This document shows, piece after piece, positions 2,307-32,929 of a stretch of DNA of 37,172 nucleotides. Source of the stretch: a virus; the IMG/VR virus record IMGVR_UViG_3300046010_005105, positions 1-37,172 of that record; one strand, given 5' to 3'. Under the pieces are notes generated by a model that worked only from the letters and a program-made list of their open reading frames with translations, was not told the origin of the DNA and did no database searches. The stretch's first letter is position 1, and every line of letters starts with the position of its first letter. The position numbers and the translations under genes are program-made.

Positions 2307-2780
2307 TTAAGCGGTTAAAGTTGATGCTATACGGTTCACGCGATTAGGTGTCTGCGTGGCGTATTTGGATTGCTTCAAAAACTTAGCAGCAAGTTCATAC
2401 TGCCCTTTTTTGATAGCGTTTAGGGTACGCTTGAATTGTGATAGCGTTGGCTTACCAAGCTGGAATGACATTTCAATAATTGCGCTTTGCACGTTTTCAG
2501 GGTGTGTATCGAAGTTTGGAACTAACTTGCGCGCATCTTTCTCAGCCGTTTCCATCGTGACACGAAGTAACGCATCTGAATCCGCTTTTGTAATTGGAGT
2601 TTTACCATTTAGCACATCATCAAAACTGGTCTTGATGCCAGCCGTTTCCCACACCTTACGCGCATTAGGACTATCCATATTGAAGCCAACACCAACGGTA
2701 CGCTTGCCAACGGTATCCTTATAAACCTTAAACCGTTCACCCTCAGCCTTGCGTATGGTGGTTTCCATTTGTGGCGTCAT
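2307..2780 (-). CDS. Nested in-frame GH24 endolysin from an internal start
   Basis: Met701 of the 857-residue protein is preceded by AAGGAGAGGAAAAC, which contains a near-perfect Shine-Dalgarno sequence at normal spacing from ATG 2780. Initiation here would give a free 157-residue protein that is all lysozyme, close to the length of T4 lysozyme. It has the triad Glu13/Asp22/Thr28 and no signal or SAR segment, so it would need a holin for release. The lysis cassette just downstream has holin and spanin candidates but no other endolysin. One gene would then supply both a virion-borne muramidase and the lysis enzyme. The internal start is inference from the ribosome binding site and the missing endolysin. 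Confidence 0.6.
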   Translation of the reverse strand: MTPQMETTIRKAEGERFKVYKDTVGKRTVGVGFNMDSPNARKVWETAGIKTSFDDVLNGKTPITKADSDALLRVTMETAEKDARKLVPNFDTHPENVQSAIIEMSFQLGKPTLSQFKRTLNAIKKGQYELAAKFLKQSKYATQTPNRVNRIASTLTA

Positions 2781-4880
2781 GTTTTCCTCTCCTTGATTGA
2801 TTTGAAAGGGAGTAGTAGGGCTATCAGGAATAGAATTCGCATCGTTTGCACCTTTGTTGTTAAAATACAAATCGTCCAAAATCTTTATCTTTTCTGGTGT
2901 AAGTGCTATAGGGGCCATTGGTTTCATCTCTATTGCTTTTGGTGCGCCCATATTAGGCTTGCGCTCTATTTGAGGCGCAATAACATTTAGTTTCTGCATG
3001 TATTTTACAGGGTTTTTCGCAAGCCCCTTAGGTGCATAAGCAAGCCATTTGATAAACTTGTCATTGGTGAAAAGTCTAGCGGTTACGTTGCCAAGCCCTA
3101 AAATCCCGCTTGTGCTAATAGGGTCAAACCATGCACCAACGCCTGATAATGCGGATAATCCACCGTAAAGAGAACGGCTTGCATTTGTAGTGTTTCTGGT
3201 GTCGCGCATGAGCATAAGCGAATCAATAGCAGCGTCAAACTGTTTAGCAGTTTCAGGCTTGAGTCCAGATTTTAAAGCTGCACGCGCTTCTGGCTCTAAC
3301 CCTTTGTACTTTGTTGCAAAACGTATAGGATCAAACTCGTTTACAGCATCATCTCCCATTTGTTTTATAAGAGAACCACGCACTATTTCACGGTCTTGTG
3401 GTTTAAGCATTCCCATTACGTTTTGTGCTTTACCGCCTATTTTAGAATTTGTGAGAACTTTATTAAAAAGCTCTTGCACATCATCGCGGCGCATCAATGG
3501 GTCAATTTGCTTTTCAACCTTTTCAATGAAACCTTTGTTTACTGCATTTGCTCGATTAAAAGCATCTAATGCAGTCTTTCCGCGTGCTGTAGCTTCTTGT
3601 CTCATGGTTTCAGACAATGCACCGTATAAGCGTGAATAAACCGCCTTATCTGCTGTTTTCAGCATAGTTACATCTTGCAGGTTGTTTCCTATCAAAGTGC
3701 GATAGTTTTTAATTGCTTCATAGGGTAACTTGCCGTTACCTGCGCTTAAATCGCGCATGATGTTGCCAACCAAGCGTCCTGCTTCCGACTTGTTAAATAT
3801 AGATTGCAATTCTGGTGTAGGCTTTTTAGCTATTTCAGATATGGCAAACCCAATAGGACGCGATTCAACCATTGTTTCTTTTGGAACAAACTTATCAAAA
3901 TTATCGTATAGCTTGCCAATTACTTCTTTACCTTTTGCAACATAGTTACCAAGACCCTCGCTAACTGTCTGCCCCGCTTGCGCTGCGCTTTTAGCGTTAG
4001 ATAATCCCGCATTGTTTAAAATATCAGTTGCTTGTTTCAGCGCGTTTTCCTCTGACTTAACAATCACGCCGGATGATAGCGGCACTTCCTTTAATACATT
4101 TTGCGTGGATTTCATGACGTTTGTGTCCGTCACATCGCCAAGCCTAGGTGTTATCCCTGCTTCAACAAAGGATTGCAGCTTTTGCGGATTTACTCCGGTT
4201 GCCATGCTCATTAAGTTTTGTGCTACGCGAGGCGCGTTTCTAGCTACTGAAACAGTGGCCTCTGGTGTGATTCCGCCTAATAGTCCCATGCCAAGCTGTG
4301 CAACTGGATTGTCGGGGAACATCTCTTTGCCAGCTTCAAGCCCTAATCCAGCCGTTCCAAACCCTGCAAGTTGCGTTGCGGTTCTGGGTGCAAGAGCTGC
4401 TATTTCTGGTAGTATGTTAGCCGCTTTTGCATATCCACCACCGGAAGCAAGAAGCTGGCCACCTGTGTCAACGACCTTTTCTAGCTTATTACGTGGGGTG
4501 TACTGACCTTTCGTGACGTAATCAAATAGCCTTTCGGCGGTACGAGAAGGCATGGGTAGCGTTTGGTTTATGTCTTGGCGAGGCGGTAAATCAGCACCAA
4601 GCGCATTAGCAATAGCGCGGCCCCCACTGTATGTTATATCGGCACCGCCCTGCATAACCATGTTTGGCAAATCAAGTATGCTTGCCACCCCTGTCACACC
4701 CATTCTCGTCGCACGCCCTAATGCGCGATCAACATCACTTAGAAAACTGCCCTCTTCTATTTTTCCAATTGGTGTCATTGTTGAAGCGGGTGGCGTAAAT
4801 GGTGCAGGTGGCGGTGGTGAAGGTGCCTGAACTCCGTATAAATTATCAAGTAATGCTATTTTTTCAGGGCTTAAAGGCAT
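2307..4880 (-). CDS. Ejection protein with C-terminal GH24 lysozyme
   Basis: An 857-residue protein, the last and largest of four genes that look like virion-internal DNA-ejection proteins. Residues 1-90 are Pro-rich. Residues about 90-240 contain Gly/Ala-rich hydrophobic stretches that could cross membranes. Residues about 240-620 are long charged helices. The C-terminal 157 residues are a T4-type muramidase (GH24): from Met701, Glu13, Asp22 and Thr28 have the spacing of the E-D-T catalytic triad of T4 lysozyme (E11, D20, T26). A murein hydrolase on an ejection protein would open peptidoglycan during DNA entry. The motif L-x-P-E-K-I-x-x-L-D-x-L-Y occurs at residues 3-15 and again at 660-672, just before the enzyme. 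Confidence 0.85.
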   Translation of the reverse strand: MPLSPEKIALLDNLYGVQAPSPPPPAPFTPPASTMTPIGKIEEGSFLSDVDRALGRATRMGVTGVASILDLPNMVMQGGADITYSGGRAIANALGADLPPRQDINQTLPMPSRTAERLFDYVTKGQYTPRNKLEKVVDTGGQLLASGGGYAKAANILPEIAALAPRTATQLAGFGTAGLGLEAGKEMFPDNPVAQLGMGLLGGITPEATVSVARNAPRVAQNLMSMATGVNPQKLQSFVEAGITPRLGDVTDTNVMKSTQNVLKEVPLSSGVIVKSEENALKQATDILNNAGLSNAKSAAQAGQTVSEGLGNYVAKGKEVIGKLYDNFDKFVPKETMVESRPIGFAISEIAKKPTPELQSIFNKSEAGRLVGNIMRDLSAGNGKLPYEAIKNYRTLIGNNLQDVTMLKTADKAVYSRLYGALSETMRQEATARGKTALDAFNRANAVNKGFIEKVEKQIDPLMRRDDVQELFNKVLTNSKIGGKAQNVMGMLKPQDREIVRGSLIKQMGDDAVNEFDPIRFATKYKGLEPEARAALKSGLKPETAKQFDAAIDSLMLMRDTRNTTNASRSLYGGLSALSGVGAWFDPISTSGILGLGNVTARLFTNDKFIKWLAYAPKGLAKNPVKYMQKLNVIAPQIERKPNMGAPKAIEMKPMAPIALTPEKIKILDDLYFNNKGANDANSIPDSPTTPFQINQGEENMTPQMETTIRKAEGERFKVYKDTVGKRTVGVGFNMDSPNARKVWETAGIKTSFDDVLNGKTPITKADSDALLRVTMETAEKDARKLVPNFDTHPENVQSAIIEMSFQLGKPTLSQFKRTLNAIKKGQYELAAKFLKQSKYATQTPNRVNRIASTLTA

Positions 4881-17705: not shown

Positions 17706-20312
17706 TCATCCCTTTCTCTTTCTGGTTTTCTTCATGCCCTTGAGTTCACCTGTGAGAGGGTCTTTGATTTTTTCAATCTCGTATTCAATTTCATCATCAT
17801 CTTCTTTTTCAGGTTTTTCTTTGACTTCCTGCTTTTGAATGATGACTTGTGGTTGTGAAATCTCTTTGAGCTTATCTACAATTTTATTCTGTGAATCAGC
17901 TAGTTTACCCACACTCCCTGCAATACTGGTGATTGCGGCAAACATTGGCGCATCATCGCGCTCCTTAAGCTTAGGCTCAGGCTTGTTGCGCAACTCTTTG
18001 ATGGTGCTTTCAAGCGATTCAATGCGCTTTGAGCTATCTGACTGCGTAGATTCAAGCAGCTTTGCCAAACCTTCCAGCACTGGCTTCATATCTTCTTGCG
18101 TGACCTTCTTAACAGTCTTACCCGTCAATACTTCCTGAATCATGCCAACATCTTCAGGAGATACAGGGGCAGTTCCAAATGCGGTTTTAGGTGCCATTGC
18201 ATCCGCTAACATTCTAGCCGCTTCAATGCGTGTTTTCTCACGTTCAATTTCTGAATTAGCCTCTTTAATTGCTAGTTCTTTTTCGCGTGCGTTCATTTCT
18301 CGGTTACGGAACGCATTATCAGATAGCATCTGCGCTTCTTTATTATCCATTTCGCGCTCTTTAAGCTCAATATTGCCAAGCATTTCCGCAAGCTTCATGC
18401 GGTCTGCCTGAGTTTCTGCAACTTCCGGCGTTTGAATGGCTTTCAGTTTTTCCATCGTTTCAGCTTTAGTCTTGTCAGCATCGGCCAATTGTTTCGCCGC
18501 GCTTGCTTCTTTGCTTGATGCTTCCGCTGCCAGTAACCGCTGCGTCATAGGGTCAGGCTGTGGAGGGGGAGGAGGCATCATTAATTGGCGCGCTTGGTCA
18601 AGCTGCTCTTTATTGAACGGCGCGTATTCTAAAGCAAGGCCAATGAATTTAGGGTCTTTAGCTGCGAGGTCGAGGAACTTCTCAAATATCTTCTGACGCT
18701 CATTCTGCGTCTGTGGTGACTGCTCTACCTGTACGTCATACTCAGCAGCGATACCATCCACTAATGATTGAATATTAATTTGTGCGTCTTTAGGCAAGAA
18801 GCGGGTAGCAAAATATGGGTTATTCTCAAGCAAGATACCAAGCAATGATATGTACAGCTTACCCTGCTTTTGCATCTTAAAGCGTTTGGCATCAAAGTAT
18901 GGCGCAAGGATAGTCATCCCTTGACGCACTTTGGCTTCGTATAAAGTCGCAGCCTGCTGTGGTGCGCTATCAGACATCCCCATAAAGTCCATTGTCACAC
19001 CTGAAACAGACATGAACGATGTATCACTAATCGAAAATGCCTGAGGTATGCTTTCAGGTAAACCGCCATATTGTTTAGGACGGGCTTTTTGTGCAGCTAA
19101 TGAACCCGGCTTAAACACCGTAAGGAATCGAGCCTTACGCGCTGTATCCCTAAACGCATTCAGATCATGCACCGCATCTTCTTCAATATCATACCCACCA
19201 AGCGCGGCGGTTTCTTGATGCGTCATCAGGTTGCTGATTGTGCGGTTATACACCTGCTGCGGGTCTTGCAATGAACGACATACGCCATAGTAAAACTGGT
19301 TTGCTTCGTCAAACTTACCAGTCATGAACAGGATACTAAATGCATCTTGTGTGTAGTTTTCTGACTTAGATATAACCTTGTTGCCGCCAATGATAGCGCG
19401 ATAATACACAAACTTCTTGTGCTTTTGGTATTCTAATTGACCACCAAAGCCCTCAATGTCCTTCTTGAGCTTATTGAACATTGCCGGACGCATTGAGAAT
19501 GAATCAAGCTGCGGATCAATCCCATAATCATTCATCGCCTCGTTCATGTAAATCATAGCGAACTGATTGTTTTCCTGCCCCATGAACGGATTGCGTACAC
19601 GGTAGAAGGTTTCTTTCTGCCGCCACTGAAACTCAAATATAATTCTAGGGCGTTGATAAGCAGCCGAACGATACCCACCAAAGAATTCTATGAAGTCATT
19701 TTCAGGGATAGACATGTTAGAAATTGAGCCGTTTTCTTCGCCAACTTCTTCCGCAAATCTTTCAGGCGATAACAGCTTTGCTTCAAACACGAAGTTACTA
19801 TCAAGGATGTTCTTTGCGCGTGATGTTGGTTCCCATCCTAAGTAGCCGGGGAATACACGGCGCATTTGCGCATCCCCATCGGGGTTTTCATCGTATGATA
19901 TGTAAGTATTAGTACCACCTACCCCACAAATTAACATGTCCTTAAAGGATTCAGAATCATGAAAGCCAGCGTAGCAGTTATCTTCAATGCAGTTTACACC
20001 TAGCTCAATAATCTGCGTTATTTGTTCGTCTTGCTTGGCGCGTGGTGAGTACGTAACCTCTGCGCGATTCTGCGTTTCAAAGCCAGCAATTGCATCAATA
20101 ACAGGGGCAGTCCGGTTAATCGTAAGCGTTGGCAATCCATCCGCTTTGCGCTCGTTATATTCTTTCTCTTCCCACTGGCTACTAGCAACCAGTAAATAAC
20201 CATTCTTTAATATCGTATTGCGCCATTGCCTTGTATTCGGGGCGTTAGTAAACCTTCTTATGCACTCGCTTGCGTATTTGATAATTGCGGTGTCATCATT
20301 CAGTTTTATCAT
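17706..20312 (-). CDS. Portal protein (P22-like)
   Basis: An 868-residue protein. The N-terminal 500 residues look like P22-type portals (motifs L-T-I-N-R-T-A-P-V-I-D-A-I-A-G and F-P-G-Y-L-G-W-E-P-T-S-R). Residues about 590-870 are a long charged coiled coil with repeated E-K and K-E stretches ending K-M-K-K-T-R-K-R-K-G. P22 portal is about 725 residues, with a C-terminal barrel; here a longer coiled-coil tail replaces it. Portals form the dodecameric DNA channel and measure headful packaging. The ATG overlaps the terminase stop (ATGA). Confidence 0.85.
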   Translation of the reverse strand: MIKLNDDTAIIKYASECIRRFTNAPNTRQWRNTILKNGYLLVASSQWEEKEYNERKADGLPTLTINRTAPVIDAIAGFETQNRAEVTYSPRAKQDEQITQIIELGVNCIEDNCYAGFHDSESFKDMLICGVGGTNTYISYDENPDGDAQMRRVFPGYLGWEPTSRAKNILDSNFVFEAKLLSPERFAEEVGEENGSISNMSIPENDFIEFFGGYRSAAYQRPRIIFEFQWRQKETFYRVRNPFMGQENNQFAMIYMNEAMNDYGIDPQLDSFSMRPAMFNKLKKDIEGFGGQLEYQKHKKFVYYRAIIGGNKVISKSENYTQDAFSILFMTGKFDEANQFYYGVCRSLQDPQQVYNRTISNLMTHQETAALGGYDIEEDAVHDLNAFRDTARKARFLTVFKPGSLAAQKARPKQYGGLPESIPQAFSISDTSFMSVSGVTMDFMGMSDSAPQQAATLYEAKVRQGMTILAPYFDAKRFKMQKQGKLYISLLGILLENNPYFATRFLPKDAQINIQSLVDGIAAEYDVQVEQSPQTQNERQKIFEKFLDLAAKDPKFIGLALEYAPFNKEQLDQARQLMMPPPPPQPDPMTQRLLAAEASSKEASAAKQLADADKTKAETMEKLKAIQTPEVAETQADRMKLAEMLGNIELKEREMDNKEAQMLSDNAFRNREMNAREKELAIKEANSEIEREKTRIEAARMLADAMAPKTAFGTAPVSPEDVGMIQEVLTGKTVKKVTQEDMKPVLEGLAKLLESTQSDSSKRIESLESTIKELRNKPEPKLKERDDAPMFAAITSIAGSVGKLADSQNKIVDKLKEISQPQVIIQKQEVKEKPEKEDDDEIEYEIEKIKDPLTGELKGMKKTRKRKG

Positions 20313-21736
20313 CTGTTATAAAAAGCCCTATAATCGAATGCGGTTGTTTTGCTTGATGCATGTCGCAGCATCATCATCGCGTAGCGCGTTGCGCTCATAA
20401 TATCGTCGTTCAATTTAACTATTAACCCATCCTTGCGGTGGTATTGTCTGAATTCATCACGCCAATCTGACAAGTGATTGAATACTTTGAAACGGCCAGT
20501 CTGCATACGCTCTAGCATTTGAGCAATTCCTGCCTCCAATCCATTGCTTCCGTCCTCGAACGTAGCCCTGTCAGGCAACATCTTTAAGCCGTGCTTTGCG
20601 TACATATCGCGCAGCGTTTGCCCTGACCCCTTATCGTGCTGCAATCCGTCATGAGGCCATGCTACAGGATAATCACCCTTAGACTTAATACTAGCAGCAT
20701 GAAATAAGGGGGTTTGTTCTTTAACACGGTAAGTGTCGTATATGTAAATCGTATCAGTATCGCGGTTCCACGCTAACCAAGCAGCAGCAGTAGGATGCTC
20801 CCACCCAAAGTCCAGCCCTACTATCTTAGGCCATGCATCCGGTATCTTGAACGGTTCAACGAATATAACTTCTTCTGCAATCGGGAATACCTTACCAGAA
20901 CCAAGCATAGGCACGCCATGCGCCCTAGCTTCACGTTCATGTACGGGGTAACTGTTAATAATTTGATTGCGCTGCTCTTCCGTATAGTGAAGCGCGTCTG
21001 ATATATCCATCCGCGTTACGTCACGATCAGGGCTAGGCTCCATTAAGAACCGATGCACTACCTGCGACATACCCAGTAATGGGGTGAACGTCATAAAGAC
21101 AAAGCCGTGCGTTGCATTAGTTCGCGTTAACCCTTCGGTGTATATCTCAGGGGGAGGCTCCTCATCAAACCAGATATAATCAATGGTTTCTGCCTGCCAT
21201 TTCTCGCGGCCTTGTTCGTATGATTTGAAATAGATGTAACTTACATCATAGTCTGCATGAAGTATATCTACACGGTCAACCGCATCCGGTACGCCCCGCG
21301 CATTCTTCACATCTAGGATTTTCTCTTTCGGTATGTAACCAGTCCCATATTGACCGGGGAGGCCAAGCAATAAACGCTGCGCTGTATCGCGTGTTGTGAG
21401 TGACGTAGGTGATGCCACCCATGCGCGGTTATGTTTAGGGATTCTTCGACCCTCCCACCAATCAGGATAAAGGCCTGTAGAGTGCATAGCGGATTCAGCC
21501 GATGCAGATAAAGACTTGCCTAGCTGGTTGCCAGCCATTAACAAGCGTTCGCGGTATTTACTCCCCGCTGTGTGGAACTGTATTTGTTTCGGATAGGGCT
21601 TGTAATTCTTGAGTTTCGTTTGCGCTATCACCTGACTGTTGAGCTTGTTCAAGCTGTCGCTTACGCTCTGCAAGGCGAGTGGCGAGTTCAGCAATAAGTC
21701 CAATTCCTTCGGCTCCAAGAGATTCAATAAGCTCAT
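20309..21736 (-). CDS. Terminase large subunit
   Basis: A 475-residue packaging motor from ATG 21736, preceded by CACAGGAAACA. A TTG at 21766 is an alternative. Near residues 68-75 A-G-N-Q-L-G-K-S is the Walker A loop; I-D-Y-I-W-F-D-E-E-P near residue 190 is Walker B with the catalytic Glu; V-G-L-D-F-G-W-E-H begins the RNase H-like nuclease domain. It cuts concatemers and drives DNA into the portal. The N-terminal 60 codons overlap the 3' end of the small-subunit gene in another frame (179 bp), far more than the usual 4 bp. Confidence 0.9.
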   Translation of the reverse strand: MSLLNLLEPKELDLLLNSPLALQSVSDSLNKLNSQVIAQTKLKNYKPYPKQIQFHTAGSKYRERLLMAGNQLGKSLSASAESAMHSTGLYPDWWEGRRIPKHNRAWVASPTSLTTRDTAQRLLLGLPGQYGTGYIPKEKILDVKNARGVPDAVDRVDILHADYDVSYIYFKSYEQGREKWQAETIDYIWFDEEPPPEIYTEGLTRTNATHGFVFMTFTPLLGMSQVVHRFLMEPSPDRDVTRMDISDALHYTEEQRNQIINSYPVHEREARAHGVPMLGSGKVFPIAEEVIFVEPFKIPDAWPKIVGLDFGWEHPTAAAWLAWNRDTDTIYIYDTYRVKEQTPLFHAASIKSKGDYPVAWPHDGLQHDKGSGQTLRDMYAKHGLKMLPDRATFEDGSNGLEAGIAQMLERMQTGRFKVFNHLSDWRDEFRQYHRKDGLIVKLNDDIMSATRYAMMMLRHASSKTTAFDYRAFYNR

Positions 21737-22025
21737 TGTTTCCTGTGCTATCTGGTGTTCCGTCAAGTCTATCCATGATTTCAGTTATGGCCTGTAAGTT
21801 TCCTTCCATACCCTTGCTAATCAAAACATGTGTTAGCTTTTCTTTCTTCGTAACACTCTCACCTTCATGCTGTGTTTTCATGTCCAGCATTTCATTGAGC
21901 AGTGTCTTAAATGTCTTTTGCCCCTTAGCCCTTCCTTTGGGGTTTCCCGATACGCCTTTAGGCCACATATTCAGTGTTCCGCCGTACTTGCCTTTGCGCT
22001 GTATATACTGCACATCTGGGTTCAT
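21558..22025 (-). CDS. Terminase small subunit (DUF5681-like)
   Basis: A 155-residue protein. Residues 18-50 contain W-P-K-G-V-S-G-N-P-K-G-R-A-K-G, the signature of the DUF5681 family that precedes large terminases in many phages. A charged helical C-terminus (TRLAERKRQLEQAQQ) follows. It would recognise the pac site and load the large subunit. The ribosome binding site is weak. Its last 59 codons overlap the start of the large subunit gene. Confidence 0.75.
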   Translation of the reverse strand: MNPDVQYIQRKGKYGGTLNMWPKGVSGNPKGRAKGQKTFKTLLNEMLDMKTQHEGESVTKKEKLTHVLISKGMEGNLQAITEIMDRLDGTPDSTGNNELIESLGAEGIGLIAELATRLAERKRQLEQAQQSGDSANETQELQALSETNTVPHSGE

Positions 22026-23013: not shown

Positions 23014-23100
23014 TTATTTACCTTTGCCTTTGCCGCCCTTTGCTTTGCCAGCATCGGAAACCATTGGCTTGACTGGCTTACATTTTCCACCTTTAGACAT
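23014..23100 (-). CDS. 28-aa Lys/Gly-rich peptide, first gene of the late operon
   Basis: A 28-residue peptide, MSKGGKCKPVKPMV followed by a Gly/Lys-rich tail (AGKAKGGKGKGK). ACTGAGGATTTT gives a good ribosome binding site. It is strongly basic with one Cys. It is the first reading frame after the late terminator (23122-23157), 21 bp downstream. Similar tiny basic proteins next to terminase genes occur in other phages and are usually unannotated. Confidence 0.55.
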   Translation of the reverse strand: MSKGGKCKPVKPMVSDAGKAKGGKGKGK

Positions 23101-23121: not shown

Positions 23122-23157
23122 AAAAAACAAAAACCCCTTAAGCCTTAGCTGTAGGGG
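23122..23157 (-). terminator. Intrinsic terminator directly behind the late promoter
   Basis: On the minus strand, CCCCUACAGC pairs with GCUUAAGGGG around a UAAG loop (5 + 3 pairs with a 2x2 internal mismatch), followed by TTTTTGTTTTTT. The hairpin and long U tract are a textbook Rho-independent terminator. The transcript from the promoter at 23179-23207 would reach it after about 15 nt. It also ends transcription from the upstream replication block. Late genes begin 21 bp beyond it, so their expression needs read-through. Confidence 0.8.
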
Positions 23158-23178
23158 CAAAAATAACATCTTATCTAA

Positions 23179-23207
23179 ATTGTAACATTTCATGCATATT
23201 GGTGCAA
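23179..23207 (-). promoter_or_regulatory. Sigma70 promoter of the late operon (PR'-like)
   Basis: Reading leftward: TTGCAC, a 17-bp spacer, TACAAT. Both boxes are close to the sigma70 consensus with ideal spacing. It begins 4 bp past the stop of the Q-like gene. A terminator follows almost at once. This arrangement (Q gene, promoter, terminator, late genes) is that of lambdoid PR'-tR'. Confidence 0.75.
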
Positions 23208-23211
23208 GCGA

Positions 23212-23727
23212 TTATTTTTGTAGCTTACTTTTGCTAGCTATTTCACAAATCACATCAGATAAATCATCAAGGCCAGTGTACAGCATTACACGCGCTTTAT
23301 TGCGATCATGCTTGAGCTTTCTTGCGGCCTGTACCATGGTGTAATCCTCGCAGCATATCAACACCAAAAACTCAAAGTGCTTTTTGTCCATCATGCTTGC
23401 AATGCGTCTGTAAAAATCACCATTCTGAAAAGTATCTACGACATAAATCTCAGTGGATGCTGACCCGCGGTCTTGCAGATTCAAACATGAACGTATGCTG
23501 CTATGTATGGTTTCCCAGAAGCGTCTTAGCTTAACCGCTGCAACGTGCTGAGATGCGTCAATTACGCCCTTTTCGTATAGTCTGTCAATGTAGTACGGAT
23601 GCCGTATCTTTGCCTTAGGTAGGCCGCTTTTTTCCATACCACCATATGCAAATTCATGGTGCTGTCTGTAGAATTTATCGGGAAGGTTTTTATAAGCCGT
23701 TCTTTTTATTGAATCGGTTGTTTCCAT
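23212..23727 (-). CDS. Candidate late antiterminator (Q-like), sigma4-type HTH
   Basis: A 171-residue basic protein. The C-terminal 60 residues contain a helix-turn-helix resembling sigma region 4: E-D-Y-T-M-V-Q-A-A-R-K-L-K-H-D-R-N-K-A-R. The N-terminal half has a G-L-P-K-A-K-I-R-H-P-Y-Y-I-D stretch like those of DUF6456-type phage regulators. It is the last gene of the leftward early block and ends 4 bp before a strong promoter with an immediate terminator, the position of lambda Q. It would bind promoter DNA or RNA polymerase to allow read-through. No zinc motif is seen. Function is inferred from location and the helix-turn-helix. Confidence 0.55.
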   Translation of the reverse strand: METTDSIKRTAYKNLPDKFYRQHHEFAYGGMEKSGLPKAKIRHPYYIDRLYEKGVIDASQHVAAVKLRRFWETIHSSIRSCLNLQDRGSASTEIYVVDTFQNGDFYRRIASMMDKKHFEFLVLICCEDYTMVQAARKLKHDRNKARVMLYTGLDDLSDVICEIASKSKLQK

Positions 23728-24120: not shown

Positions 24121-24708
24121 TCAACTGGGTTGTTCTGTTTCCCCACCATCCGCCGATCTAACTTCTGACTTGCCTTCGAAATACGCCTTGTCAAACGCCT
24201 TCGCTTCTTTGATTTCGGTTTTTTCTGGCTGGTCAACTCGTAAGTTTTCATAAAGCCCCTTGAGTATTTTATCAACAGTTGCAGGGTCAGCACGCTCTGG
24301 CTGTGAAAGCTGCCTTGAAGTATCAATGTAATACAATTTTTCGCGAACAACGTGTAATTCATGTCTTGTATTTACAGCCGCCCTTACAGCCAATTCCTTA
24401 AGCTCTGCAGCCCTTGGAAAAAACTGGCTTTTAATGTCCTGCCTGTACATTCTGCAAGCGGCCTCCAATGTAAAAAATGATATGTTTGAAAGATCATCGC
24501 AATAATCATCCATTAACATTTTTAACTCAGTTTGGTTCGCGTTTCCCAATGAGTAATGCAGGGATAGCCTCGCTAATAGGCTGGCTATTTCCTCCCGCTT
24601 GGCTGGTGATAATTTCGTAAGCAGTTGGCTCTCTCTTTCCTTCAGCAAGGCCACTTGCTGCAAATGCTGCTTTGATTTGTTTTGTTCTAAATCCTTCTGG
24701 TTTTCCAT
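24121..24708 (-). CDS. Helicase-loader-like replication protein (P-like)
   Basis: A 195-residue protein from ATG 24708 with AAAAGAGGACTACA before it. The central segment L-M-D-D-Y-C-D-D-L-S (near residue 60) followed by L-E-A-A-C-R-M-Y-R-Q-D and F-F-P-R-A-A-E-L matches a family found after replication initiators in many proteobacterial phages, thought to load the host DnaB helicase. Position after the O-like gene supports this. The first 60 codons overlap the 3' end of the O-like gene in another frame (24527-24708). No ATPase motif is seen, as with lambda P. Confidence 0.6.
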   Translation of the reverse strand: MENQKDLEQNKSKQHLQQVALLKERESQLLTKLSPAKREEIASLLARLSLHYSLGNANQTELKMLMDDYCDDLSNISFFTLEAACRMYRQDIKSQFFPRAAELKELAVRAAVNTRHELHVVREKLYYIDTSRQLSQPERADPATVDKILKGLYENLRVDQPEKTEIKEAKAFDKAYFEGKSEVRSADGGETEQPS

Positions 24709-25315
24709 TGTAGTCCTCTTTTGGTAAATAAACATTTTTCCATGAATTAATAATTGCCATTTCCACCAACTTGCAGGGGTCGTGACCTTGGTTTAAAAAC
24801 TGCTCTAGCCTTTTTATCAGCCCCACTTGCGCTCGATATGAGTTAACCGCCTTCATGGTTTTTCTAACTTGCATCCATGAATCCCATAAATCTTTCGGCA
24901 TCCAATCAGGTAATACCAAAAAGGGGGTAGGGGGTTTCTTCTCTGTCTCTGTCTCTGTCTCTGTCTCTGGTAGTACGGTTTCGTTACGGTTTAAGTACGG
25001 TTTCGTTACGGATTCGTTACACGATTGTTCTATAACAATAAATCCAGATTGTGAAATTTCCTTAATTCCACTTTCTACATCTGATAGGTTTAACCGTAAC
25101 CTAAATGATATTTCTTCGTAACTAATCCGTATACGACCCGATACGGGGTCTTCGTCTTCACTAGCAAGAAGCCATAGCATAGGTAAAAGAGCGCGAGCAT
25201 TAGCACTCATTCGCTGAAAGTTATAATTATCTAACATTGTTCGGTGAAACCGTATCCAAGGCGGTCTACGGTCTTTATAGGATTGATATGAATCCCAGTT
25301 CTTAACTAATATCAT
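24527..25315 (-). CDS. Replication initiator (O-like), winged-helix N-terminus
   Basis: A 262-residue protein. Residues about 30-100 form a winged-helix DNA-binding domain (ISYEEISFRLRLNLSDVES then a GFIVIE wing). Residues about 103-130 are a linker with four consecutive ET dipeptides. The C-terminal half (W-M-P-K-D-L-W-D-S-W onward) resembles the C-terminal domain of phage initiators. In the linker DNA there are two exact 18-bp direct repeats, like the origin inside lambda O. AGGAGGACAGGATTTTAA precedes the start. The role is to bind those iterons and recruit the loader. Confidence 0.65.
   Translation of the reverse strand: MILVKNWDSYQSYKDRRPPWIRFHRTMLDNYNFQRMSANARALLPMLWLLASEDEDPVSGRIRISYEEISFRLRLNLSDVESGIKEISQSGFIVIEQSCNESVTKPYLNRNETVLPETETETETEKKPPTPFLVLPDWMPKDLWDSWMQVRKTMKAVNSYRAQVGLIKRLEQFLNQGHDPCKLVEMAIINSWKNVYLPKEDYNGKPEGFRTKQIKAAFAASGLAEGKREPTAYEIITSQAGGNSQPISEAIPALLIGKREPN
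24940..25020. repeat. Candidate replication origin: iterons plus a TCTCTG tract
   Basis: AGTACGGTTTCGTTACGG occurs exactly at 24972-24989 and 24994-25011 (period 22 bp), with a degenerate third unit TTCGTTAC at 25013-25020 and an inverted AACCGTAAC near 25091. Five copies of TCTCTG lie beside them at 24940-24969, and the other side (25021-25080) is AT-rich. Because 22 is not a multiple of three, the two copies are read in different frames and encode different residues, so the repeat is conserved as DNA. Iterons within an initiator gene recall lambda ori. Confidence 0.65.
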
Positions 25316-29191: not shown

Positions 29192-30496
29192 ATGGCTTCG
29201 TTAAATAAAAAACAAACTATCTACACATACGAAGGCGCTGTTGCTAAACACATCCCCCCAAAACAGCAGCTTGAACGCTCTGTCATGTCTTGCATGTTGT
29301 GGGAAGGTGAATTTTATGAAGATGGCGTTACGATTGCCAAGCGCATTGCTGGATTGATTGCACAGATTCCAGCAAAAGACGTTGCAGAAATAGCAACCAA
29401 AGCAAAAACCGAAATGCATTTGCGTCATACGCCATTATTTATGGCGCGTGAACTTGCGCGTACTATTGATGGTCGCAAACAATTGGCAGAAGCGTTTGCT
29501 GCGTTGATAACACGCCCTGATGACATAACAGAGTTTTTGTCAATTTATTGGAAAGATAATTCCGAGGAACCGCTTGCTAAACAGATTAAAAAACATTTAG
29601 GCGCTTCGTTCGCACGTTTTGATGAATATCAATTGCAGAAATATAACGGTGGCAAGAAAGCGGTTAAGTTGCGCGATGCTATTAGAATTCTGCGCCCTAA
29701 GCCTGCTAACCAAGAGCAATCAGAGTTATGGCGCAAACTTGTCAAAGATGAGCTTGCAACGCCTGATACATGGGAAGTAGAAATTTCAGCGAGCAAAGAT
29801 AAAAAATTATCTTGGGAACGTTTGCTTAAAGAATCAAAACTTGGTGGTTTGGCAATGCTTCGTAATATTCGTAATATGAAACAAGCGGGTGTTGATAGTG
29901 ATTTAATTAAACATGGTATCGCAACGCTCAAATCTGCAAAACTATTGCCTATGAATTTTATATCAGCGGCAACGCATAATCCTGAGTATGAATCAGATAT
30001 TGAGGTAAAATTTCTTGAGTGCTTTGCGGGTAAACCAAAAATGTCAGGTAAAACAGCAATATTAGTTGATGTATCTGGTTCAATGCGAGGTGCATTATCT
30101 GGTAGGTCTGAACTTCAACGCAAAGATGTTGCATGTGCATTAGCTATGATTGCGCGTGAAACTTTTGAGGATTGCAATATTTATAGCTTTTCTGACAAAT
30201 TGGCTATTATTCCTGCACGTCATGGATTTGCTTTGAAAGATGCAATAATTAATTCTCAGCCACATTCAGGCACTCAATTAGGTGAAGCGGTGCGACATGT
30301 GGTTAGCGCCCTAACTCCTGACCGTATTATTGTCATAACTGACGAGCAAAGCTCCGACCCTGTGCCGGATGTTAAGGGAGGTTATATGATTAATGTGGCA
30401 TCTAATAAAAACGGCGTTGGATATGGCGCATGGTTCCATATTGACGGGTGGTCTGATAAAGTGATTAATTATGTCTATGAGCATGAAAAACAATAA
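29192..30496 (+). CDS. rsr: Ro60-like TROVE/vWA RNA-binding protein
   Basis: A 434-residue protein. The N-terminal 250 residues have the helical TROVE repeat character (R-H-T-P-L-F-M-A-R-E-L-A-R). The C-terminal domain is von Willebrand A-like with a full MIDAS: D-V-S-G-S-M near residue 291, a Thr in S-G-T-Q-L-G-E-A near 361, and V-I-T-D-E-Q near 381. Ro60 rings bind misfolded RNAs and Y RNAs; in bacteria the Rsr protein works with PNPase and Y RNAs in RNA decay. Two tandem structured RNAs stand immediately upstream. AAAGG precedes the start. A role in phage RNA handling is inferred. Confidence 0.9.
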   Translation: MASLNKKQTIYTYEGAVAKHIPPKQQLERSVMSCMLWEGEFYEDGVTIAKRIAGLIAQIPAKDVAEIATKAKTEMHLRHTPLFMARELARTIDGRKQLAEAFAALITRPDDITEFLSIYWKDNSEEPLAKQIKKHLGASFARFDEYQLQKYNGGKKAVKLRDAIRILRPKPANQEQSELWRKLVKDELATPDTWEVEISASKDKKLSWERLLKESKLGGLAMLRNIRNMKQAGVDSDLIKHGIATLKSAKLLPMNFISAATHNPEYESDIEVKFLECFAGKPKMSGKTAILVDVSGSMRGALSGRSELQRKDVACALAMIARETFEDCNIYSFSDKLAIIPARHGFALKDAIINSQPHSGTQLGEAVRHVVSALTPDRIIVITDEQSSDPVPDVKGGYMINVASNKNGVGYGAWFHIDGWSDKVINYVYEHEKQ

Positions 30497-30515
30497 CTTA
30501 ACAGTAGGATACAGT

Positions 30516-30683
30516 ATGAAATACATCATTGCAATAACCTTAATGCTAGTAGCCAGTTCAGCTAGTGCTAACCCATACTTGAGCTGTGGATTGCCACCAC
30601 TAAAGCCCTTGGGGTGTAATGTGCAACCAACCTGTGTTTGTGATCAGCAGGGGAATTGCACGTATGTCTTTATAGGGTGCTAA
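30516..30683 (+). CDS. Secreted Cys-rich small protein
   Basis: A 55-residue protein from ATG 30516 (AGGA 8 nt upstream). Residues 1-18 form a signal peptide (MKYIIAITLMLVASSASA) with a likely cut after Ala-Ser-Ala. The mature part has six cysteines in 37 residues, enough for three disulfides in the periplasm. The family is seen in other phage early regions but has no known job. TAATG overlap couples it to the next gene. Confidence 0.65.
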   Translation: MKYIIAITLMLVASSASANPYLSCGLPPLKPLGCNVQPTCVCDQQGNCTYVFIGC

Positions 30684-31051
30684 TGAAGCGAGTCTATCAC
30701 CGATACGAAAAATGGGAAGAATACCATGCTGGCATGTGGAATAAATTACCACCAGAACGGGAGGCGGAATTGTTAAAGCAAGCTATAGAGTTTACTGGCA
30801 ACCCGCCCCTATACGGTTCGTTTATGATGCGGGTTATTAAAGAATGGCCTATATCATGTGAACACAACCTAACCTGCAAGGGAATGAATAGGCAAGCATG
30901 GATAGGTCACGCCGCTGCTTGCATTGCCATTGGATGCCCAGAGCATATTACACGTGAAGCATGGGCATATTTAACGCAAGAGCAACAAGACTTGGCAAAT
31001 GCAGAAGCGGACAAAGCAATCGCGCAATGGGAGCTAGAATACAATGCCTAA
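30683..31051 (+). CDS. Conserved phage protein preceding the IbrA-like gene
   Basis: A 122-residue protein from ATG 30683, starting M-K-R-V-Y-H-R-Y-E-K-W-E-E-Y-H-A-G-M-W. Later segments are R-V-I-K-E-W-P-I-S-C-E-H-N-L-T and N-R-Q-A-W-I-G-H-A-A-A-C. This family is recurrent in phages and I recall it beside PAPS-reductase-like genes. It overlaps the IbrA-like start by 8 bp, so it belongs to the same unit. Function unknown; the paired Cys/His positions could bind a metal. Confidence 0.65.
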   Translation: MKRVYHRYEKWEEYHAGMWNKLPPEREAELLKQAIEFTGNPPLYGSFMMRVIKEWPISCEHNLTCKGMNRQAWIGHAAACIAIGCPEHITREAWAYLTQEQQDLANAEADKAIAQWELEYNA

Positions 31052-32255
31052 AACTGGACTTGGAATAGATGTTTATAAAGCAGCACAAGAGCGTATTGAA
31101 TATACGTTTGATAATTTTGAGCGTATTTATGTGAGTTTTAGCGGAGGGAAAGACTCTACTGTAATGCTTCATATGGTTATGGATGAGGCGATAAGGCGAA
31201 ATCAAAAAATTGGCGTTATGTTTATTGATCTTGAAGGGCAATACAAACTCACGATTGACCATATCCAGCAATGCTACGACATGTACGCGGATAATATAGA
31301 GCCGTATTGGTGCTGCCTTCCTATTCACTTGCGCAATGCTGTTAGCGTGTATGAGCCACACTGGATTGCTTGGGAACAAAGCAAACAAGAGGCATGGATT
31401 AGAACTCCCCCCGATATGGCAATTACTGATTTAAAATATTTTCCGTTTTTTCATGACGGAATGGAGTTTGAAGAATTTGTACCGCTGTTTGGGCAATGGT
31501 ATGGTCAAGGTAAACCATGTGCGTGTTTTGTAGGTATCAGGGCAGACGAAAGCTTAAACCGTTTTCGCTCTATTGCTCGCGATAACAAGCAGATGTTTGC
31601 GGATAAGAAATGGACAACGCTTGTTTTGCCAAATGTTTACAATGTTTATCCGGTGTATGATTGGAAAGTCATTGATTTGTGGGTGTACCACTCAAAGAAT
31701 CGGAACAAGCCACATAATCGCTTATATGACATGATGCACAAGGCTGGATTAACCTTAAGTCAAATGCGCATTTGTCAACCATACGGTGATGACCAGCGCA
31801 AGGGGTTGTGGTTGTTTCATCTTATTGAGCCGGAAACTTGGGCGCGAATTGTCGCAAGGGTAAATGGTGCTAACGGCGGGGCTTTATATGTTCAAGAGTC
31901 TGGCAATATTACTGGTTACAGACGCGTGAGTAAGCCTGCGCATCATACATGGCAAAGCTTTTGTGATTTATTGGTTAATTCTATGCCGCCAAAAACAAAA
32001 GAGCATTTTGAAAATAAGATTTTGCTTTTTAATCGTTGGTGGCAAGAGCGCGGGTATCAGGATGGAATACCCGACGAAGCGGACTACCGCATGGAAGCGG
32101 AGCGCAAAGCCCCATCATGGCGCAGATTGTGTAAGTCGCTTTTGCGAAACGATTATTGGTGCAAAGGCTTAGGGTTCACACAACATAAAAGCGCAGCTTA
32201 TCAAAAATATTTGGATTTAATGAAACGGAGGAAAGAAAAATGGAATCAAGCTTAA
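31044..32255 (+). CDS. ibrA: IbrA-like PAPS-reductase-fold protein (DUF3440)
   Basis: A 403-residue protein. S-G-G-K-D-S near residues 33-38 is the pyrophosphate loop of the PAPS reductase/ATP-pyrophosphatase superfamily. The C-terminal half has the DUF3440 look (T-G-Y-R-R-V; W-C-K-G-L-G-F). IbrA is known from E. coli, where with IbrB it activates prophage-linked eib genes; the reaction is not known. Related folds transfer sulfur or adenylate, for example DndC in DNA phosphorothioation. Here it is coupled to an IbrB-like gene (16-bp overlap). The function in this phage is open: gene control, nucleic-acid modification or counter-defence. Confidence 0.8.
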   Translation: MPKTGLGIDVYKAAQERIEYTFDNFERIYVSFSGGKDSTVMLHMVMDEAIRRNQKIGVMFIDLEGQYKLTIDHIQQCYDMYADNIEPYWCCLPIHLRNAVSVYEPHWIAWEQSKQEAWIRTPPDMAITDLKYFPFFHDGMEFEEFVPLFGQWYGQGKPCACFVGIRADESLNRFRSIARDNKQMFADKKWTTLVLPNVYNVYPVYDWKVIDLWVYHSKNRNKPHNRLYDMMHKAGLTLSQMRICQPYGDDQRKGLWLFHLIEPETWARIVARVNGANGGALYVQESGNITGYRRVSKPAHHTWQSFCDLLVNSMPPKTKEHFENKILLFNRWWQERGYQDGIPDEADYRMEAERKAPSWRRLCKSLLRNDYWCKGLGFTQHKSAAYQKYLDLMKRRKEKWNQA

Positions 32256-32929
32256 AACATAAAATAGTAGAATCCGCAAAAACCGTGTTTTGGAATTTAA
32301 ACGACTTGTCGTTTGAAGATAAAATTAACGCTATTAATGAAATAAAGCTTGCGCTTCATGCGGCAAGCCCAATGGTTAATGAACCCGTTGATTGCGTTTT
32401 GTGGGTAAAAAATGAGGAAGTAATAGCAAATGACTACAATCCAAACTCAGTTGCTCCACCAGAAATGAAACTGCTGGAAACCTCAATAACAGAAGATGGG
32501 TACACACAACCTATCGTGACCTATCCGAATAACGATATTAGGGAGGTTGTAGACGGGTTTCACAGAAGTCGCGTAGGAAAAGAGTCTGATGTAGTTAGAG
32601 AGCGTGTATTTGGTTATGTGCCAGTTGTAACCATCAAGCCATCGCAAGAAGATAAATCAGATCGTATGGCGGCAACCATTAGGCATAACCGAGCAAGAGG
32701 GAAGCATCGTGTTGATTCAATGTCTGAAATTGTTTTAGAATTAAAGCGCAGGAATTGGTCAGATGCAAAGATTGCCAAAAACCTTGGCATGGATGCGGAT
32801 GAAATTTTGCGCCTGTCTCAAATTGGCGGCCTTGTAGATATGTTTGCGGACAAAGAATTTAGCGAGGCATGGCAAGCTGATTCTATTAATGAAACCGATA
32901 ATCTTAATGTGGAGGAAGAAGCGGCATGA
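32240..32929 (+). CDS. ibrB: IbrB-like ParB-fold protein
   Basis: A 229-residue protein. Residues about 50-160 hold the ParB/sulfiredoxin fold: N-D-Y-N-P-N, then S-I-T-E-D-G-Y-T-Q-P-I-V, then V-D-G-F-H-R in place of the ParB G-x-R-R motif, then R-H-N-R-A-R-G-K-H. A helix-turn-helix follows (WSDAKIAKNLGMDADEI). GGAGG precedes the ATG, and the gene overlaps the IbrA-like gene by 16 bp. IbrB-like proteins act together with IbrA. DNA binding is likely; CTPase or nuclease activity cannot be told. Confidence 0.8.
   Translation: MESSLKHKIVESAKTVFWNLNDLSFEDKINAINEIKLALHAASPMVNEPVDCVLWVKNEEVIANDYNPNSVAPPEMKLLETSITEDGYTQPIVTYPNNDIREVVDGFHRSRVGKESDVVRERVFGYVPVVTIKPSQEDKSDRMAATIRHNRARGKHRVDSMSEIVLELKRRNWSDAKIAKNLGMDADEILRLSQIGGLVDMFADKEFSEAWQADSINETDNLNVEEEAA

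Follow-up and report, generated by a model that had tools for sequence, protein, structure and literature searches.

The window analysed here, a whole virus record of 37,172 nucleotides, quite probably carries a Q-type switch for phage late-gene antitermination that a GafZ-like factor would operate. What the sequence shows directly is the gene order, the presence of elements resembling a promoter and a terminator, the protein homology and the return of the layout in relatives. Promoter activity, termination at the hairpin, protein binding and antitermination are all inferred, and there are no transcript or biochemical data for this phage. Under the proposed mechanism, drawn by analogy with GafZ, Q proteins and AlpA, RNA polymerase would start at a promoter that directly follows the regulator gene and, if the regulator is absent, would halt approximately 40–50 nt later at a hairpin and U-tract. 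Expression of the early operon would supply the 171-aa regulator, which might bind the promoter and load on the promoter-proximal polymerase; by travelling with the polymerase, it would allow the terminator to be read through into approximately 22 kb of late genes. The terminator behind the last early gene could also serve an ordinary role. On our best reading, the new elements are a remote GafZ relative in a phage, without a GafY partner, and Q-like working outside the Q families.

Gene order and putative regulatory elements

The features on which this reading depends are as follows, all on the minus strand.

24527–25315, minus: early-operon gene with a replication O-like product, upstream of the regulator (phrog_26426, E = 1e-17; phrog_678, E = 5e-16)
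23212–23727, minus: regulator gene, last of the early operon, encoding P0001 (171 aa), a proposed GafZ-like antiterminator
23202–23207, minus: −35-like TTGCAC, 4 bases past the TAA stop codon, matching the consensus at 3 of 6 positions
23185–23201, minus: 17-nt spacer with ATGCAT only, where relatives have inverted repeats
23179–23187, minus: putative extended −10, TGTTACAAT (TG-T-TACAAT), with the hexamer TACAAT at 23184–23179
23133–23158, minus: putative terminator hairpin GCCCCUACAGCUAAGGCUUAAGGGGU (26 nt, GCCCCU...AGGGGU), folding at −12 to −13.6 kcal/mol
23122–23133, minus: U-tract TTTTTGTTTTTT, read from the sequence
approximately 1160–22999, minus: run of ORFs behind the terminator (from the ORF list), a presumed late operon whose operon status is inferred
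20309–21766, minus: P22-type terminase large subunit, at the start of the late region that would be under control of the switch (PF03237, E = 2.5e-32; PF17289, E = 1e-19)
17706–20312, minus: P22-type portal protein (PF16510, E = 6e-58)

The initial annotation had placed TTGCAC-17-TACAAT on the minus strand 4 bp past the regulator stop codon, and these coordinates were confirmed (23207–23179). The GC hairpin and U-tract described about 15 nt into the transcript were found at the expected distance, with +1 near 23172 and the hairpin (23158–23133) beginning near +15. Likewise, the approximately 22 kb of late genes assumed to lie behind them correspond to minus-strand ORFs from 22999 to about 1160, including the terminase and portal genes. 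An 84-aa ORF upstream of the regulator gene matched nothing in Pfam, and its best PHROG hit (E = 0.06) was not significant.

The putative promoter was the top minus-strand candidate in the 840 bases from 23240 to 22400, and the offset of TTGCAC from the stop codon (+4) was the same as or similar to that of TTGYCC in the relatives L117, L130, L201 and L297. Taken alone, it did not exceed chance (shuffling of its interval gave P = 0.30), and neither of its elements passed a generic scan. The hairpin was the best minus-strand terminator outside genes, with about 0.5 such scores expected per strand in a random 37-kb sequence, and its folding energy was by itself unremarkable (z = −0.82). Neither the promoter nor the hairpin energy was accepted as evidence by itself; since each element is near chance in the window, the claim had to be tested on relatives. 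A −10-like TG-T-TATTTT is also present behind the promoter, at a position that is not exactly that of the lambda sequence for a sigma-dependent pause.

Directly behind the U-tract and ahead of the first late gene, a possible 28-aa Lys/Gly-rich ORF (MSKGGKCKPVKPMVSDAGKAKGGKGKGK; 23014–23100, minus strand) with a good ribosome-binding site was observed. A 10-aa Lys/Arg-rich ORF (MAKKRKGGRC) occupies the matching position in L035.

The regulator and its remote relation to GafZ

The best family match of P0001 was phrog_21451, a family without annotated function (E = 2e-6; residues 47–159, i.e., 113 residues, against profile positions 48–162 of 169). Even with the window left out of model building, the family model recovered P0001 at E = 3.6e-11 for a search space of 40,000. 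No close homologues were found by DNA or tblastn searches of phage records, nor by peptide patterns in IMG/VR and GTDB contigs. The AF2 model of P0001 was all-helical and confident over approximately residues 46–170 except for a loop near 80–92, with residues 1–42 disordered, and it predicted a helix-turn-helix (HTH) near the C-terminus resembling sigma region 4. A sequence search of solved structures with P0001 gave no match. In the comparison of the model with PDB structures, the weak fold matches listed (50 of 208) were mostly to sigma factors and other HTH regulators; the sigma-factor matches were best over region 4 (rmsd 1.3–2.9 Å over 52–61 columns), with E values that were not significant.

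A comparison by hhalign of 12 phrog_21451-like proteins with 11 chromosomal DUF6456 proteins gave a probability of 97.8% (E = 1.2e-12), whereas shuffled or reversed controls gave 0.5% or less. By these profile comparisons, the family of P0001 is remotely homologous to DUF6456/GafZ. P0001 itself scored 12.6 bits against DUF6456 (PF20057), under the Pfam cut-off of 26.3, and hence is not filed as a member. Three of the compared DUF6456 genes were located directly behind a GafY-like (DnaA-domain) gene, which is the gafYZ arrangement; this likeness was judged by eye.

GafZ, a DUF6456 protein that corresponds to the C-terminal half of Rhodobacter GafA, was shown in 2024 by Tran and Le to be an antiterminator of the gene transfer agent of Caulobacter crescentus (PMC11150451). 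Its activity depends on an inverted repeat located between −35 and −10. Together with RNA polymerase and Nus factors it spreads along the cluster, and it passes the terminators terGTA and rrnB T1 (PMC11150451). The phage system resembles it in the remote protein homology, the sigma-like HTH of the predicted fold, the terminator downstream of the promoter (PMC11150451) and, in several phage relatives, an inverted repeat between −35 and −10. Unlike gafZ, however, the phage gene directly adjoins the promoter and terminator that it would control, and no GafY gene adjoins it. Moreover, the terminator lies approximately 15–45 nt into the transcript in the phage but behind the first gene for GafZ, and GafZ works with GafY and IHF, whereas no phage counterpart of either was found. 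No description of phage members was found in the open-licence literature on GafA/GafZ.

The arrangement also recalls the Q–PR′–tR′ region of lambda and phage 21, in which the regulator is the last early gene and is followed directly by the late promoter, an early terminator and the late genes. The initial annotation had inferred this logic with a short leader, and the inference was supported by the same order behind divergent homologues. The leader in the window is much shorter than that of lambda, the length of the latter being taken from general knowledge. The regulator was also said to be unlike lambda Q, which agrees with the absence of any match between P0001 and the Pfam antitermination families, including Q, at E up to 0.5, and of any Q or AlpA structure among the 50 of 208 weak fold matches listed. 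Pseudomonas aeruginosa has an antiterminator outside the Q group, AlpA, whose binding element sits between −35 and −10 and whose target promoter is followed by an intrinsic terminator (PMC7969949, PMC9371919); in loading position within the promoter, Q proteins and AlpA agree with GafZ. In contrast to AlpA, which controls host lysis genes, the proposed switch would control phage late genes; no match to AlpA was seen for P0001, and the AlpA element GGGACGN5GGTA was absent from the window spacer. P0001 is best read as not being a member of the Q families while being Q-like in its working, antitermination itself being inferred. The suggestion of a distinct antiterminator class holds for the protein as a proposed antiterminator, with the qualification that the class is not wholly unknown, given its remote homology to DUF6456/GafZ. 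We propose late-gene antitermination as the function of phrog_21451.

Recurrence of the layout in relatives

Relatives were reached through the terminase, in P22-type prophages of Rhizobiales that have strong phrog_21451 members upstream of the terminase gene. In the family search, members were found in 73 of 397 sampled genomes of the order Rhizobiales and in 41 of 395 of the sampled family. Relatives often precede a terminase gene, and as these terminases fall into at least four types, the module is not bound to a single phage lineage.

Members for the test were picked by a terminase (or portal) gene no more than 6 kb downstream and reduced at 60% protein identity (n = 27), and 385 other genes from the same loci served as controls. 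An earlier test set had been chosen partly after the sequences had been viewed, so the test was rerun on these terminase-selected members; the terminase models themselves were nonetheless seeded from previously inspected loci. A promoter-like site plus a terminator behind the stop codon was found for 15 of the 27 relatives versus 11 of the 385 control genes (p ≈ 1e-13), and an exact TTGACA for 10 versus 6, respectively (p = 1.5e-9). Terminators were present behind 18 relatives versus 81 control genes; by the rule used, the remaining 9 relatives lacked one. One locus, L213, was excluded from the final counts; at 2396–3561 on its plus strand, the family model matches each of two overlapping ORFs, which may be a split or duplicated regulator.

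In L130 (from Pseudochrobactrum kiredjianiae), L117 and L201, the stop codon is followed by TTGYCC-17-TATATT and then by a hairpin with a T-run. Between L117 and L130, conservation spans the interval from the gene to the terminator, and the DNA diverges directly behind it. More distant members also have a terminator behind a promoter-like site, for example TTGACA-GGGTGCACCCTCAAGGG-CATGGT in L226 and TTGACA-17-TATGTT in L231. The order of gene, promoter, terminator and late genes recurs behind divergent homologues. As far as sequence comparison can decide, the arrangement in the window is supported by its relatives and not by its single elements. Its recurrence behind distant relatives, in many alphaproteobacterial phages, suggests that the gene encodes a late-gene antiterminator related to GafZ and not to lambda Q.

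For a conserved binding element between −35 and −10 in relatives, which the initial annotation had proposed as a check, several relatives offer possible candidates. Their promoters contain perfect inverted repeats that coincide with the −35 or lie just behind it in the spacer (combined P = 5e-4, 19 promoters): CCGCTTAAGCGG in L297, CACGTGCGCACGTG in L203, AGGGTGCACCCT in L226, GTTACGCGTAAC in L012 and TGACAGGTGTCA in L212. The window spacer, however, contains only ATGCAT, so this element is not established in the window.

Two other motifs were observed near the regulator genes. The octamer GATTTGCG lies between promoter and terminator in L130, L201, L202, L222, L273–L276, L278, L281 and L282 and recurs despite differing surrounding DNA; it might act in the initially transcribed region as a site of pausing or loading. 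Its counts were not relied on because a redundancy filter at 62% DNA identity had merged unrelated regions. In two separate genomes, L206 and L208, the interval from the regulator gene to the terminator contains a 20-bp inverted repeat, CGATATGCTAGCGCATATCG, 26 nt past the regulator stop codon.

Two groups of candidates were set aside. A 205-aa Ensifer/Rhizobium phage protein (phrog_15385) that appeared similar by eye was not homologous (profile–profile comparison, 5.9%), and its genes were without the promoter–terminator pattern. Bradyrhizobium chromosomal homologues that adjoin a GcrA-like gene also lacked the pattern and were not counted as support. The group of chromosomal regulator homologues in L179, L181, L182, L184–L188, L190, L192–L195 and L200, several of them beside a GcrA-like gene, is without the pattern and possibly forms a domesticated branch.

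Alternative explanations and possible significance

The 171-aa protein might instead bring polymerase to this promoter as a sigma-like factor or late-gene activator, with a leaky terminator ending the early operon and no antitermination. Such a role would fit the sigma-4-like HTH predicted for P0001, the poor −35 of the window, the proposal that Rhodobacter GafA is an alternative sigma factor or activator (PMC9638019) and the approximately fourfold reduction of a terminator-free reporter upon GafZ deletion (PMC11150451). Against it stand the promoter-like sites between gene and terminator in 15 of the 27 relatives, many of which have the consensus TTGACA and should need no activator. Given also that terminator read-through by GafZ was shown (PMC11150451), this possibility is regarded as unlikely, although it cannot be dismissed. 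Slightly less likely is a chance promoter. The hairpin would then simply close the early operon, and late transcription would come from another promoter or by read-through from the early one. The window alone would permit it, given that 30% of the interval shuffles score equally high, that generic scans list neither element and that operon-end terminators are common (81 of 385 control genes); but relatives are followed by the layout far more often than control genes are, and the distance of the window site from the stop codon is as in the L117/L130/L297 group.

The short terminated transcript could also be the product itself, a phage small RNA (sRNA). Terminated late-leader RNAs act as sRNAs in other phages, and a leader of approximately 50 nt that closes with a hairpin and U-tract is shaped like one. 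Nevertheless, no Rfam match (nor any tRNA feature) was found in the window and the leader sequences of distant relatives are dissimilar, making this explanation very improbable; a small RNA could, moreover, coexist with antitermination.

Late-gene antitermination by a GafZ-like factor thus remains the preferred reading. A broader proposal is that phrog_21451 and related proteins serve as the standard late-gene antiterminators in many phages of alphaproteobacteria, across several types of terminase. They would be independent of lambda Q, 21Q and AlpA, and GafA/GafZ would descend from such a phage Q module, one whose own promoter and terminator were split off on domestication. We hold this tentatively, as a serious possibility that falls just short of what we would favour. 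The preferred reading, if right, would assign a function to an unannotated protein family that occurs in 73 of the 397 genomes sampled from one alphaproteobacterial order, and late promoters and terminators would become predictable from sequence alone in dozens of prophages. A phage-borne class of Q analogues with a very short leader would also be added, and the control of gene transfer agents would be tied to that of phage late genes.

Elsewhere in the window, plus-strand genes at 29192–32929 encode a phrog_850 RNA-binding protein, a PAPS reductase (an auxiliary metabolic gene) and a ParB-like protein. Within the late region, a 155-aa ORF (phrog_26239; 21558–22025, minus strand) shares approximately 200 nt with the start of the terminase ORF, and similar overlaps were observed in the relatives L006, L007, L013 and L021.
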